From positions 1 to 64,000 of the forward strand of contig JBCCWS010000007.1 of assembly GCA_039193195.1 (NCBI GenBank): DNA of 64,000 nucleotides, given 5' to 3'. Shown piece after piece: positions 5,208-33,974 of this stretch. The notes below the pieces were generated by a model that did no database searches, had not been told where the DNA came from, and was given only the letters and a program-made list of their open reading frames with translations. Position 1 is the first letter of the stretch, and every line of letters begins with the position of its first letter. The position numbers and the translations under genes were made by a program. The stretch is from Pseudomonadota bacterium (GTDB taxonomy: Bacteria; Pseudomonadota; Gammaproteobacteria; Steroidobacterales; JBCBZW01).

Positions 5208-5492
5208 GTGAGCGACGGCAACGACACTGGCACCGACAACAAGGTGATTCGCACAGTGCAGGGACGTGTGGTCAGCAACAAGATGGATCGCACGATCACG
5301 GTGGCGATCGAGCGCCGCGTGAAGCACCCGCTGTACGGCAAGTTCGTGCGTCAGACCACTAAGCTGATGGCCCACGACCAGGACAACGACTGCCGGATTG
5401 GCGATGTCGTGCAGATCCGCGAGTGCCGACCGATGTCGAAGCATAAGTCGTGGCAGCTGGTGAACGTGGTGGAGCGCGCACCGGAGCGGTGA
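5208..5492 (+). CDS. rpsQ: 30S ribosomal protein S17
   Basis: OB-fold 16S rRNA binder, 94 residues from GTG. Core motif [19 protein letters not shown] and the C-terminal [12 protein letters not shown] are present. The N-terminus is about ten residues longer than in E. coli ([15 protein letters not shown]). Confidence 0.95.
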
Positions 5493-5504
5493 TCGCAGGG
5501 TAAC

Positions 5505-5549
5505 GAGTGACTCGCTGCCTCTTGCGAACGAGGCGCGGCTGAGTCGCTC
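5505..5549 (+). promoter_or_regulatory. Two-part hairpin between rpsQ and rplN
   Basis: GAGTGACTC (505-513) pairs with GAGTCGCTC (541-549) with one mismatch, and inside it GCCTC (517-521) pairs with GAGGC (530-534). It lies in the 116-nt gap where the S10 operon ends and the spc operon begins in enterobacteria. It could be an attenuator or processing site. No T-run follows. Confidence 0.45.
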
Positions 5550-5570
5550 ACTGGACAGCAAGGCCGAGCG

Positions 5571-5604
5571 GACGCGAAGGGCGACCGAGGCCAGCCGGGA
5601 GCGG
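5571..5604 (+). repeat. Repeat copy R2 at the rplN start
   Basis: Matches 511-542 with 16 of 17 bases at the left end and all 11 of the right end (GCCGGGAGCGG), differing in the middle 4-6 bases. Here the GGGAG of the right end sits about 8 nt before the rplN ATG and probably acts as its ribosome-binding site. Confidence 0.5.
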
Positions 5605-5608
5605 ACAG

Positions 5609-5977
5609 ATGATTCAGATGCAGACAGTGTTGAGCGCGGCCGACAACAGCGGTGCCCGCAAGGTCATGTGCATCAAGGTGCTGGGCGGCTCGAAGCGTCG
5701 CTACGCCGGGGTCGGTGACATCATCAAGGTGAGCGTCAAGGACGCCATCCCTCGCGGCAAGGTGAAGAAGGGCGAGATCTACAACGCTGTGGTGGTTCGC
5801 ACGCGCAAGGGCGTGCGCCGTCCAGATGGTTCGCTGATCCGTTTCGACGGCAACGCAGCCGTGCTGCTGAATAACCGCCTCGAGCCGATCGGCACGCGTA
5901 TCTTTGGCCCGGTTACGCGCGAACTGCGTACCAGCAACTTCATGAAGATCATCTCGCTCGCACCGGAAGTGCTGTAA
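5609..5977 (+). CDS. rplN: 50S ribosomal protein L14
   Basis: First gene of the spc segment. 122 residues reading [24 protein letters not shown], with [20 protein letters not shown]. Binds 23S rRNA next to L19 and is the docking site of the silencing factor RsfS, also encoded here (37094-37456). Confidence 0.97.
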
Positions 5978-6002
5978 GCGGGCGCGGCGAGAGGAAGAGA
6001 CG

Positions 6003-6332
6003 ATGAACAAGATCCGACAGGGTGACGAGGTGATCGTCATCACGGGCAAAGACAGGGGGCGGCGCGGTTCCGTCACTCAGGTGCTGGGTAACGGCCGCGT
6101 GCTCGTTGAAGGCATCAACATGGTTAAGAAGCACCAGCGTCCGAACCCGCAGGCCGGCGTGGCTGGCGGGATCGTCGAGAAGGAGATGCCCATGTCCATC
6201 TCCAACGTGATGCTGTTCAACCCGGCCACCTCCAAGGGTGACCGCGTGGGCATCCGCGTGCTCGACGACGGCGACGGTGGTTCGCGCAAGGTGCGCTATT
6301 TCAAGTCCAACGGCGAAGTCGTGGACATCTGA
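6003..6332 (+). CDS. rplX: 50S ribosomal protein L24
   Basis: Assembly initiator protein with a KOW motif ([21 protein letters not shown]). 109 residues. The [14 protein letters not shown] loop is conserved. ATG start after a GAGGAAGAGACG ribosome-binding region. Confidence 0.96.
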
Positions 6333-6342
6333 GGTTACGGCG

Positions 6343-6882
6343 ATGGCTAGGCTGCAAGAGTTCTACAGAGAGACCGTGGTCCCCCAGCTTCGCGAGAAGC
6401 TGCAGATCGAGAACGTGATGGAAGTGCCACGGCTCGAGAAGATCACCGTGAACATGGGCGTCGGCGAAGCGGTTGCCGACCGCAAGGTCATGGAGCACGC
6501 CGTAGGCGACCTGACGGCGCTGTCGGGCCAAAAGCCTGTCATCACGCTGGCGCGCAAGTCTGTCGCCAGCTTCAAGATCCGCGACGGCTACCCATGCGGA
6601 TGCAAGGTTACGCTTCGCCGCGAGCGCATGTACGAGTTCCTTGATCGCCTGATCGCTATCGCGATTCCTCGTATCCGCGACTTTCGCGGCCTGAATCCCA
6701 AGGGATTCGATGGTCGCGGCAACTACAACATGGGTGTGAAGGAACAGATCATCTTCCCCGAGATCGACTACGACACGATCGACACGATACGGGGTATGGA
6801 TATCTGCTTCACCACCTCCGCCCACAGCGACGAACACGGGCGCGCATTGCTGGAAGCCTTCAGCTTCCCGTTCCGCAAGTAA
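6343..6882 (+). CDS. rplE: 50S ribosomal protein L5
   Basis: Central protuberance protein that binds 5S rRNA. 179 residues from ATG at 6343 ([20 protein letters not shown]), exactly the family length. An in-frame start at 6238 lies inside rplX and is rejected. Motif [19 protein letters not shown] is present. Confidence 0.97.
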
Positions 6883-29468: not shown

Positions 29469-32414
29469 ATGAAGCGCGCAGCCAGTCTGCTCGGCGCCAC
29501 CACGATCGCGATCGCAGCGATCGTCGGGCTTAAAGCGCCGACGGGATCGGATGTATTCGCAGGCGAGGCGGTGACGCCTGTGCCTGCTCTAGACAACACG
29601 GTAGCCCGCCCGGTCGCTGCCTCGATCGATGTTCCCCAGGGCCCGGCTGCGCCCACTGTCCCCGGGGCGCGCACCGCTTCGCAGGCGGTGGCGACTGAAG
29701 TTCCTCCGCCACTCGCTGTGTCGCTCGCGCGGGCTGAACAGGCTCGAGCGGCTGATCGTCAATACCGTGCCACGACAGGGCAAGCTCCTGCAGCTGCGCC
29801 TGGTGATCGCAGCCATGGCCAGCTGTCCGTCCGTGCAGGGGCCTTCGTGCCGCCCGCTGTGGGGCAAGTGGATCAGGTGATCTCTATGCCTCCGGGGCTC
29901 ACCCTGGCCCAATTGGAGCGCGAGCTCGACGCCGCGGGCGGTGAGGTGCTTCGAGCCTACGGCAACTTCGCCATGGTTGCGGTACGGTTGCCCGCTGAGG
30001 ACGCAGCCGCCTTCTTGGCTGACAATGGCATCCAACGTGCAGTCGAGGATGAGGTTGTCGAAATGGCTTGGAGTGGCGCTGGTTCGGGTAGCCGTAGTGC
30101 CATGCTCGAAGCCGCCAACGTGCCCACCGCCACGTCCGCCTCCTCGCGGATCGGCATAGCCGTGATCGACGGCGGTGTCTTCGAGCACCGGGATGTCAAC
30201 GTGCAGCGCCACGCAAACTTCATTCAACCCTCCACTCGCCAGCAGGGCGCGCGCAGCGAGTCAGGCCCGCAGGCGTTGTATATCTTCGATGAAGGGCAGG
30301 GTGCTCGCGTGTTCGACCGTGCTGACCACGGTGGGCAACCGGCTCATCTGGAGTACGTATCGCTCCTGAACGACGCGGAGTACAACGCACTCGTGTCGAG
30401 CTACTACCCGGGCGGCGTGCACCCCGATCAGGTGTCCTTGAAGTCCCTGCGCTCCGTCGGTGGAGGGGCGGCGCGCTTCATGGATCTGCTCAACTACAGC
30501 AACAAGGCGCTGAAAGTGCTGTGGGTGAACTTCGAGGGCGAGCCAGAGCATTACCACACGGTGGCGCCCTTCGGTTATCAGAGCTGGCAGACCCGCGCCG
30601 CCCACCCCTGGATCATCGCCGATGCCGTGACGGGGGAGTACCTGAGCGTCATCGAGTCGCCCACGGACTCGCCCTACAACGACTTTCACGGCAACCCCAT
30701 CACCTGGCACGGCCAGGGCGCGAGCGTCGCCAACGGCTCTCTGCGTGCGCAGTTCTCCGGGGTCAGCCGCATCACCGCCGAGTGTCGCAAGACGGACTTC
30801 ATGGCGGTGGAGGCGTGGCTAACACTACCGCCCGCGAGCTTGGTGCACGGCGAGGTGACCGTACTACGCCACGGCGTGGGATCGAACAACTCCTTCGAGC
30901 TTGAAGACCTCGGTTCGAACGGCATGGAGTTGAGCATCAAGACCACACGGGGCAACTTGGTCGCCAGGTGGATGCCCCCACACCGAAACGCAGTGCCCCA
31001 GCACATCGTCGCGAAGCTCGGTGCTGATCGCTACCTGCGCGTCTTCGTCGATGCGCAGCAAGTCTTTAGCCAGTACGTGAGCTCGTCCCACAAGCTCGAC
31101 AGCTGGCCGGAGCAGGGCCGTCTACAGCTCGGGTTGTACGATACGACGAGGGCCTGGGCCGGAGAGTACAACCTGCTTGCCGTGCACTGTGACAACAAGC
31201 AGAACTCCACGGCCGGGAGCTTCTACGCAGAGGGCCCCGACGCCTTCATTACCGACCGTGACCCGGCAGGTCACGGCACGCACGTTGCTGGTGCCCTGTC
31301 TGGCAATGGGCTCGGCTCCCTCGGTCAGTACCGCGGGGTTGCCTCCCAAGCGCCGATCTTCGACCTGCGCGTTCTCGATGGGGAAGGCAAAGGCACAGTG
31401 AGTGCCGTGTTGTCCGCCCTCGATTGGGTGGCTAACAACGCGACGCAGTACGACATTCGCGTCGTGAACATGAGCTTGGGTAAAGCCGTAGAGGCGGCAG
31501 CGGAGTTTGATCCGCTCGTGCAGGCCGTAGAGGCGCTCTGGGCTGATGGCATCGTGGTAGTGGCCTCTGCCGGCAACTACGGTTCTCTTGGCAACTTCTA
31601 CATCACCAGCCCGGGAATCGCGCGTAACATCATCACGGTGGGCTCGGTAACGGATGGGGGGACTGGGCTGAACTTCGCCGATGACTACGTCTCGAGCTAC
31701 TCCTCTCGCGGCCCCACCATGTACGACCACTTCCTGAAGCCGGACCTGCTCGCGCCGGGCAACCGCGTGGTCGCCGCGGTCGCGGGCCACGCCAATCTGA
31801 AGGAGCAACTGCCTGAAGGCGTGGTCGAGTGTCTCCTCGACTGCGACGGTGGCAGCTACCTCGAGATGTCAGGCACCAGCATGGCGGCCGGTGTGGTCTC
31901 CGGTGCTGCAGCCCTGATGCTGGCGGAGGATCCTTCCCTCAACCCCGCCACCGTCAAGGCACGCTTGATGCGCTCGGCGCGGAAGATCGCAGGCGATCCA
32001 GTGGAGGTCGGTGCGGGTGTACTCGATGTGCAGGCCGCGCTTGCGCAGGGTGGTTTCGCCGCGACCGCGCCGTCGCCGAAGATGTCTCGCTCGCAGCAGG
32101 GCTCGGTCATTCTTATCGAGGACACCGGCGAGCTGTGGGGCTCCACTCAGTGGGGCGCTGCCTACCTTTGGAGTGATGGCTACCTCTGGAACGATGGCTA
32201 CCTCTGGAGCGATGGCTACCTCTGGAACGATGCTTATCTGTGGAGCGACGGCTACCTCTGGAGCGATGGCTACCTCTGGAGTGACGGCTATCTCTGGAGT
32301 GATGCGTACCTGTGGAGCGATGCCTATCTCTGGAGTGATGCGTACCTGTGGAGCGACGGATACCTCTGGAGTGATGGCACCATCACCCAGGATACTGTTG
32401 GCCGCGGCGACTAG
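29469..32414 (+). CDS. Secreted S8 subtilase with VHL-like and LamG-like insertions and YLWSDG repeats
   Basis: 981 residues. ATG at 29469 follows GGAGGAGCGGAG. Signal peptide MKRAASLLGATTIAIAAIVGL, Pro/Ala-rich segment, I9-like propeptide (about 135-200), then a subtilase fold with D234 (AVIDGG), H602 (GHGTHVAG), N703 (SAGN) and S804 (GTSMAA). Asp to His is normally about 30-100 residues; here it is 368, filled by a VHL-beta-like domain (about 330-400, LWVNFEGEPEHYHTVAP, HPWIIADA) and a concanavalin/LamG-like beta domain (about 440-576). Residues 899-970 are 12 perfect YLW[SN]D[GA] hexamers. Likely exported or surface-bound protease; substrate unknown. It stands alone 153 nt after lnt and is followed by a small secreted protein. 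Confidence 0.9.
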   Translation: MKRAASLLGATTIAIAAIVGLKAPTGSDVFAGEAVTPVPALDNTVARPVAASIDVPQGPAAPTVPGARTASQAVATEVPPPLAVSLARAEQARAADRQYRATTGQAPAAAPGDRSHGQLSVRAGAFVPPAVGQVDQVISMPPGLTLAQLERELDAAGGEVLRAYGNFAMVAVRLPAEDAAAFLADNGIQRAVEDEVVEMAWSGAGSGSRSAMLEAANVPTATSASSRIGIAVIDGGVFEHRDVNVQRHANFIQPSTRQQGARSESGPQALYIFDEGQGARVFDRADHGGQPAHLEYVSLLNDAEYNALVSSYYPGGVHPDQVSLKSLRSVGGGAARFMDLLNYSNKALKVLWVNFEGEPEHYHTVAPFGYQSWQTRAAHPWIIADAVTGEYLSVIESPTDSPYNDFHGNPITWHGQGASVANGSLRAQFSGVSRITAECRKTDFMAVEAWLTLPPASLVHGEVTVLRHGVGSNNSFELEDLGSNGMELSIKTTRGNLVARWMPPHRNAVPQHIVAKLGADRYLRVFVDAQQVFSQYVSSSHKLDSWPEQGRLQLGLYDTTRAWAGEYNLLAVHCDNKQNSTAGSFYAEGPDAFITDRDPAGHGTHVAGALSGNGLGSLGQYRGVASQAPIFDLRVLDGEGKGTVSAVLSALDWVANNATQYDIRVVNMSLGKAVEAAAEFDPLVQAVEALWADGIVVVASAGNYGSLGNFYITSPGIARNIITVGSVTDGGTGLNFADDYVSSYSSRGPTMYDHFLKPDLLAPGNRVVAAVAGHANLKEQLPEGVVECLLDCDGGSYLEMSGTSMAAGVVSGAAALMLAEDPSLNPATVKARLMRSARKIAGDPVEVGAGVLDVQAALAQGGFAATAPSPKMSRSQQGSVILIEDTGELWGSTQWGAAYLWSDGYLWNDGYLWSDGYLWNDAYLWSDGYLWSDGYLWSDGYLWSDAYLWSDAYLWSDAYLWSDGYLWSDGTITQDTVGRGD
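32163..32378 (+). repeat. Twelve 18-bp coding repeats in the subtilase gene
   Basis: Each unit reads TAC CTC TGG AGT GAT GGC with synonymous and S/N or G/A changes, giving (YLW[SN]D[GA])12 without interruption. The synonymous variation argues for selection on the peptide and against a very recent expansion. Confidence 0.95.
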
Positions 32415-32440
32415 GCCCTCGAGCGACAGGAGTGAAAGCG

Positions 32441-32731
32441 ATGACCAAGCTGACCATGTCGATCGTGTTGGCCTTTGGGGTCTCAGGCGCTGCCGGCGCA
32501 CCTGTCCTTGGTGCATTTAGCGCTGAGCAGGTCGCGCAGGGCGCACCTTCCCCTCATCCCGTCGAGCGGGTGATGGTGGATATGGTGTCCAGGGACGATG
32601 CAGAGATCATTCTGCTGCGCCTGGGCGTTGATCCAAGCCGCATCGAGCACAGTGCTCACGGAGTAATTGCTCCCCTTACGCTGGGGCAGCGAAGCGCCTT
32701 GGCGCGCTTGGAAAGCGTGCAGCTGCGTTAG
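32441..32731 (+). CDS. Small secreted protein, possible I9-like subtilase inhibitor
   Basis: 96 residues. ATG at 32441 with GGAG 8 nt before it, 26 nt after the subtilase stop, so likely co-transcribed. Signal peptide TKLTMSIVLAFGVSGAAGA. The mature part runs VERVMVDMVSRDDAEIILLRLG and ends GVIAPLTLGQRSALARLESV, which has the look of an I9 propeptide/inhibitor fold (beta, helix with xxAxxLL, then G-x-LT-xxQ-xxAL). The I9 assignment is by eye and tentative; role as inhibitor or folding helper of the protease is inference. Confidence 0.65.
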   Translation: MTKLTMSIVLAFGVSGAAGAPVLGAFSAEQVAQGAPSPHPVERVMVDMVSRDDAEIILLRLGVDPSRIEHSAHGVIAPLTLGQRSALARLESVQLR

Positions 32732-32789: not shown

Positions 32790-33974
32790 CTAGCCCGTTG
32801 CGCGTTCTTCTGGGCTGCTTACCAATGGCGCCGTTAGCTCGGCGGCGACGACGCAGTTGCGACCCCTTGACTTCGCTCGGTAGAGGGCGAGGTCCGCTTC
32901 GCGGAACAGTGATAGCGGCTCACGCTCCTCCTCCTCCGGAGGTAGCGTGGCTACGCCGACGCTGAGGGTGACGTAGGCAGAGATACTGGAATCCGGGTGT
33001 GGTATCTCGCACTGCTCTAGGTGACAGCGCAGGGCTTCGCCGAGCTTCGTGGCCTCGCGCAGGTCGGTGTTCGGCAGCAGCACCACAAACTCCTCGCCGC
33101 CGTAGCGCGCCAGGAGGGTCTCGGCTGAACGTTTCTCGCAGAAGCGCTCTAGCTCATCGGCTACGGCGCGTAGGCACTCGTCCCCCGCGCCGTGGCCGAC
33201 CGCATCGTTGTAGCGCTTGAAGTAGTCGATGTCGGCGACCAGTAGCCCAACGGCGCAACCCTTGGCGCGGGCCTCCTGCCACGCGTCGTCCAAGCGTGAG
33301 GCGAAGCGGCGCCGGTTGTAGAGATTGGTCAGCGGATCGCGCTCGGAAAGGATCTTGAGTTCGTCGACTAGCGCTTCCTTCTCCAAGCGGTTTTGCTCGG
33401 AGGTGATCAGCGTGTGGTGCACGCGATGGCCGGAGATGAGCATGAAGGCGAACCAGGCGATCCACTCGGCGACCAGCGTGTAGTGGAAACCGCTTTCGAG
33501 CGGCCACATGAGCAGCGGCAGGGAGAGGGCCAGGGGGATCGTGAAGCAGCCGAAGGACACGATAGAGGCCGAAGTGGTGGCGATGGCTGCACCCACGACG
33601 CCTGCGACGGAGATCACGGCGATCGTGAGCTCGGGCGGGGATCCGAGTGAGACCACGGCCGCCACATTGACGATCCATGCAGTCGCGTGACATAACGTTG
33701 TCCCCGCGTGCAGATTCCGCCAGGTGACCGGGCTAAAGAGGCCGGAGCGGCGGCGGTGGGCCATGTAGAGCGCAGTGCGTGTGATGGCGAACAGCAGCGT
33801 CAAGCAGACCCACCAGTACAGGGAAGCGGCCGGCAGCTCGCCGCCGTAGTAGGCCAGGTTGATGCCGAACACCGTGAGTGCTCCGAGCACCGTCGCTGGG
33901 ATATGGCAGTACAGGATGGCGATCAGCCGTTCCTGCAGGGCTGCCTTCAAACGACCAGATTGTTTGGGAGTCAC
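32790..33974 (-). CDS. Membrane-bound diguanylate cyclase
   Basis: 394 residues from GTG. About five to six hydrophobic spans within 15-185 with no recognisable sensor family, then a GGDEF domain (about 205-385) with RDPLTNLYNRRRF and the active GGEEF loop at 292-296. Makes cyclic di-GMP. An RxxD inhibitory site is not seen just before GGEEF. Convergent with the subtilase pair. Confidence 0.92.
   Translation of the reverse strand: MTPKQSGRLKAALQERLIAILYCHIPATVLGALTVFGINLAYYGGELPAASLYWWVCLTLLFAITRTALYMAHRRRSGLFSPVTWRNLHAGTTLCHATAWIVNVAAVVSLGSPPELTIAVISVAGVVGAAIATTSASIVSFGCFTIPLALSLPLLMWPLESGFHYTLVAEWIAWFAFMLISGHRVHHTLITSEQNRLEKEALVDELKILSERDPLTNLYNRRRFASRLDDAWQEARAKGCAVGLLVADIDYFKRYNDAVGHGAGDECLRAVADELERFCEKRSAETLLARYGGEEFVVLLPNTDLREATKLGEALRCHLEQCEIPHPDSSISAYVTLSVGVATLPPEEEEREPLSLFREADLALYRAKSRGRNCVVAAELTAPLVSSPEERATG

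Follow-up and report, generated by a model that had tools for sequence, protein, structure and literature searches.

What kind of protein ends in an unbroken run of near-identical aromatic hexapeptides, is such a run maintained by selection, and what might it do? In the window, which is the whole 64,000-nucleotide stretch of DNA analysed in the present study, twelve YLW[SN]D[GA] hexads followed one another back to back, without a break, at 32163-32378 on the forward strand. Translation of these positions confirmed the twelve perfect hexapeptides described in the first-pass annotation. With the ATG at 29472 as residue 1, the array comprised residues 898-969 of a 980-residue S8 subtilase, which corrected the earlier numbering of 899-970. 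The array had also been placed at the C-terminus; it was indeed near the end, but 11 residues (TITQDTVGRGD) came after it before the true C-terminus. The S8 carrier, its paralogues and the sensor neighbourhood described below are additions to that annotation.

The carrier protease and its adjoining genes

The features of the locus were as follows.

29472..32414, + strand: S8 subtilase gene, 980 aa, bearing the array (PF00082, E=5e-43; PDB fold search)
29472..29564, + strand: probable Sec signal peptide (MKRAASLLGATTIAIAAIVGLKAPTGSDVFA), read from the sequence
29859..30071, + strand: propeptide-like alpha/beta domain, residues about 130-200 (AlphaFold2 pLDDT mostly >90)
30168..30170, + strand: catalytic Asp233 (IAVIDGG), a nearly invariant column of alignment A2
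30489..30650, + strand: VHL-beta-like domain within the Asp-His insert (PF01847, E=4.1e-8, 33.6 bits, cut-off 21 bits)
31272..31274, + strand: catalytic His601 (GHGTHVAG), nearly invariant in alignment A2
31878..31880, + strand: catalytic Ser803 (SGTSMA), invariant in alignment A2
32070..32144, + strand: conserved pre-repeat segment PSPKMSRSQQGSVILIEDTGELWGS, presumed N-cap (comparison of families A and B)
32145..32162, + strand: degenerate in-register unit TQWGAA directly before the array, giving 13 W at spacing 6
32163..32378, + strand: hexad array, 12 x YLW[SN]D[GA] (translation, TRF, shuffle test)
32379..32411, + strand: final residues TITQDTVGRGD, a presumed C-cap region (DD is the ending of many other family A proteins)
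32432..32731, + strand: small signal-peptide-like downstream ORF, 96 aa from the ATG at 32441, beginning 17 nt past the protease stop
32790..33974, - strand: stand-alone GGDEF diguanylate cyclase gene, a convergent neighbour (PF00990, E=9e-47)

A PDB fold search with the array-bearing protein returned subtilases as the best matches, with pro-subtilisins among the top ones. Judged by its residues, the Asp-His-Ser triad is intact and the protein belongs to the S8 peptidases (PF00082), with which it may also share a propeptide-like domain and export. Unlike them, it adds the W-hexad module and a large insert, about 350 residues long, which separates the catalytic Asp from the His and bears the VHL-beta-like domain. 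From the model, residues about 130-200 may serve as an I9 propeptide; the Pfam scan gave no match to PF05922 for the window subtilase. Signal-like N-termini were observed in 74 of the 83 carriers by a crude hydrophobicity test.

The PADLOC subtilase and IetS profiles matched the window protein across the S8 catalytic region, and its NCBIfam IteS score was far below the cut-off. No partner ATPase was found among the neighbours of the window gene covered by the Pfam scan. In plasmid records, S8 matches were below 60% identity and none spanned 80% of the query. The small downstream ORF is probably co-transcribed with the protease. It gave no family match above the Pfam cut-off, and its only orthologue, with 69% identity, was in the congener (2 of the 20 genomes searched, with the window genome); it was accordingly rejected as a conserved partner. 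The convergent arrangement with the GGDEF gene was kept in the congener (locus L021).

Distribution, anatomy and selection of the array

To describe the occurrence of such tails, 84,980 species genomes were scanned for five W at a spacing of 18 nt with matching neighbours, and at least 116 stretches matched. Among the matches listed, the arrays came from Proteobacteria, Acidobacteriota, Chloroflexota, Actinomycetota and one Bacillota MAG. The named carriers among them were Steroidobacter, Peristeroidobacter, Alteromonas, Aliiglaciecola, Thalassomonas, Pseudomaricurvus and Woeseiaceae, together with Acidobacteriota, Anaerolineae and Caldilineaceae MAGs, the Bacillota MAG, Knoellia and Phycicoccus. 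Cultured species such as Pseudomaricurvus alcaniphilus, Steroidobacter gossypii and Alteromonas salexigens are among the carriers. The possibility, raised earlier, that the repeats were strain-specific noise is thus contradicted by relatives across several phyla. In the window genome itself, tails with W at every sixth residue were encoded by 12 S8 genes, seven of the YLWSD type and five of the GYTWSQ type. PF00082 matched 58 of the 65 array-bearing ORFs from the matches listed that were scanned with Pfam; several of the remaining seven were truncated or were unrelated N-rich proteins. The trait was sparse, since only 6/369 genomes matched in a class-wide sample, some of them through chance repeats.

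In the catalytic-core tree, nearly all carriers fell into a single clade, with an actinobacterial member (locus L197) outside it. Those apparent non-carriers in the clade that were inspected had an array region that was cut, masked or broken. We define the W-hexad subtilase clade by W at spacing 6, at least four units, a position C-terminal to the S8 domain and grouping of the carriers; the window gene has all of these features and grouped with family A. A single origin of the carriers is likely, judging from this tree, rather than proven, because the genes were sampled by pattern and the root was placed at the midpoint. In Knoellia and Phycicoccus, both actinobacteria, the array was placed before the catalytic region, and the actinobacterial S8 genes at L092 (415-2373) and L197 (6313-7998) carried GWGDGI or GWSDGI hexads in that position. 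W/N-rich stretches of Ruminococcus (WNNNNQ; loci L102, L125 and L198) matched the pattern but were not S8, and glycoside hydrolase domains were present in some of these proteins.

Over 101 carriers, the unit consensus was [YF]-[LTVI]-W-[STGNA]-[DNQ]-[GAS], with 4-18 units per array (median 9). Copy numbers over these carriers did not favour multiples of 3 or 2, as a fixed 3-strand or 2-strand coil might require, and such a coil was rejected. N runs broke up the arrays in public contigs at L108, L110, L140 and L191, so that copy numbers there are underestimated. Bases 1-118 of contig C1 of the window genome (L055-L062) consisted of a perfect hexanucleotide repeat, of TTGGGC type on the minus strand, which is possibly the site of an assembly break.

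The segments flanking the arrays were also conserved. Family A, the window type, had a pre-repeat segment resembling ALSPxLxRxxDGxxxLVEDTAxLWG, and its array proteins often ended in DD. Family B had HFGGPANxDxxGNYY in the equivalent position and ended in SINSWVEQE-like sequences, commonly 17 residues past the last W. The end segments were conserved across phyla, for example SLTETMSINSWVEQE. Of 28 gaps left where W was lost, 16 had a length that was a multiple of 6, and those of 12 residues kept [DN] (13/14), G (13/14) and mostly an aliphatic residue. One relative alternated YIWTDG with GVNANG, that is, hexads with and without W; this tail (locus L006, 676-2760) had a 12-residue period and was missed by the W-every-six filter.

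The variable acidic position bears on a role in calcium binding through an Asp ladder, as in RTX proteins. Asp was present in all units of the window array, and the W-hexads resembled RTX repeats in being short, Gly/Asp-rich and located near the C-terminus of exported proteins. They differed in having a period of 6 rather than 9, an aromatic core and an Asp that varied across relatives: it was replaced by Q in five paralogues of the window genome and by N, E or K elsewhere. Pfam returned no RTX domain match, so the array does not belong with the GGxGxDxUx nonapeptides. Because Asp was not conserved in the relatives, many of which carry N, Q, E or K in its place, calcium binding, proposed in the first-pass annotation, is not supported as a general function, and we consider it highly improbable for the array.

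At the DNA level, 10 of the 12 units of the window array were distinct, and the variation was confined to third codon positions and to the S/N and G/A sites. The degenerate codon pattern was found in 11 pairs of adjacent units, compared with 0 expected from 100 dinucleotide shuffles, and the TRF scores of the array were 260 for a period of 18 and 303 for a period of 72. In the window orthologue pair, formed with the congener, dN was 0.021 and dS 1.30 over the array, whereas the preceding 300 codons gave 0.043 and 0.81; in some other pairs, dN was inflated by AGY/TCN serine switches that left the amino acid unchanged. The number of units was equal in 7/7 orthologue pairs between the two genomes, which answered the earlier suggestion to count copies in related genomes. 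These results demonstrated that the array peptide is under strong purifying selection, as synonymous codon variation had earlier suggested.

The DNA units of several arrays were similar at lag-2, indicating that the evolution of these arrays involves, in part, the duplication or conversion of doublets. The same similarity could be cited in favour of a neutral origin of the array, through slippage by 18 or 36 bp and gene conversion. However, the peptide was preserved while synonymous sites were heavily changed, and one module was found on one protease family in several phyla. Both the dN/dS values and the copy numbers contradict neutral slippage, which was rejected and which we regard as scarcely credible.

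Candidate fold and role of the tail

Neither Pfam nor NCBIfam had a model over the tail, and a PDB sequence search with it found no relative (best E 0.65, a pectate lyase). The tail is thus unlike common sorting signals, as had been stated, and the known domain model that would have accounted for the repeats was absent from these three resources. The open library that was searched contained nothing relevant on the motifs, or on a subtilase with a propeller or repeats. These results indicated that the W-hexad tail is a conserved repeat module, hitherto undescribed, in a protease family that is itself known.

Our preferred reading, which we hold tentatively and at somewhat under even chances, is that the array is a capped aromatic accessory module of strand/turn hexads that docks the exported S8 protease to a ligand or partner, with a sensor pathway in relatives. 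The Y-L-W of each hexad would form a short beta-strand and S-D-G a tight turn. Successive strands would build a regular sheet or solenoid with a W/Y face opposite an aliphatic face: with a three-residue strand and a three-residue S-D-G loop, we infer that all Y and W would fall on the same face, with every L opposite. The conserved segments before and after the array would close the sheet or solenoid, and the aromatic face would probably dock the protease to an extracytoplasmic partner or polymer, holding it near its substrate.

The repeating beta structure proposed in the first-pass annotation fitted the residue preferences and the 6-residue register of the W-less units, but AlphaFold2 gave none: over the array, pLDDT was about 25-35, with no strands, in two different family members. 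From these models, the low pLDDT fits disorder equally well as a fold that could not be learned from about 60 sequences, and the strand-plus-turn structure is suggested by the sequence pattern. Among known architectures, left-handed beta-helix hexapeptide repeats share the six-residue period. Unlike these repeats, which have one aliphatic position and small residues elsewhere ([LIV]-[GAED]-X2-[STAV]-X), the W-hexads each have a single W and a strand of the order aromatic, aliphatic, aromatic, and Pfam gave no match to the Hexapep profile. By our own analogy, the hexads may also resemble tryptophan zippers (PMC2705519), in which Trp strands are joined by tight turns; those are designed single hairpins, whereas natural arrays of up to 18 units occur here.

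The same models are relevant to a tail without a fold, a disordered and sticky aromatic segment acting as a flexible linker or as a hydrophobic anchor with low affinity for membrane, polysaccharide or protein. This is unlikely in our estimate but deserves serious weight, given the pLDDT of about 30 without secondary structure in both models and the high G/S/D content. On the other hand, the 6-residue register was often retained despite the loss of W, copy number was equal between orthologues and conserved segments flanked the array on both sides. Moreover, subtilisins favour large hydrophobic P1 residues, and an unfolded YLW-rich tail should therefore be cut by its own subtilase.

Such cutting could itself be the function. 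The protease may process its own array at aromatic or Leu P1 residues, as an autoinhibitory timer or for the release of repeated peptides, possibly read by the neighbouring beta-propeller sensors; we consider this rather improbable. The homogeneous short tandem peptides on a protease, the W-hexads on an actinobacterial S8 protein outside the main clade and the many arrays adjoining Reg_prop sensors with GGDEF, His-kinase or sigma54 outputs are consistent with it. However, a fold is suggested by the conserved end segments and by the W-less units that stay in register, and the window genus has no linked sensor. In units that lack W, both the register of six residues and the [DN]G turn persist, which favours a lattice of strands and turns, closed by conserved caps, over free peptides. 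In a further version, which we regard as very doubtful, the array would be a peptide store cut by its own subtilase, and the freed YLWSDG-type peptides would be read by beta-propeller sensors, either linked or, in this genus, unlinked; if true, this would be a protease-encoded signalling system with paralogue-specific peptides.

The W-hexad tail is a candidate new repeat fold. The module spans several phyla on one protease clade, occurs in twelve genes of the window genome and is tied to large sensors in relatives. It provides a defined family in which to examine whether a repeat tail serves to dock exported proteases or allows them to be sensed.

Reg_prop sensor genes beside the proteases

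In related families, the neighbours of the proteases were Reg_prop/Y_Y_Y sensors with GGDEF, His-kinase or sigma54 outputs, as well as GGDEF-EAL response regulators. Among 54 neighbours, hand-picked as adjacent to and mostly co-directional with the protease, Reg_prop was present in 21 and GGDEF in 22. By our own count in nine related genomes, 13 of the 17 Reg_prop genes adjoined a W-tailed S8 gene, and two of the others were at contig ends. A Reg_prop gene was found at 17/59 array loci compared with 1/57 array-free loci (Fisher P 4e-5, uncorrected for relatedness).

These one- and two-component sensors are separate proteins that neighbour the W-tailed proteases in relatives but not in the window genus. 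In the window genome and its congener, 0/4 Reg_prop genes each were near an array gene, and the only such signalling neighbour of the window gene was the convergent stand-alone GGDEF gene. The linkage, strong in relatives and absent from the window genus, therefore cannot be assumed for the window gene. In relatives, the adjoining beta-propeller sensor genes suggested a shared pathway, in which the protease would act together with an adjacent periplasmic sensor setting cyclic-di-GMP or gene expression; any interaction between the two is, like the fold and the docking role, putative. In the region 5285-6410 of locus L046, Reg_prop matches were observed in two reading frames beside the array gene, which suggests a frameshift or an assembly error in the sensor gene.
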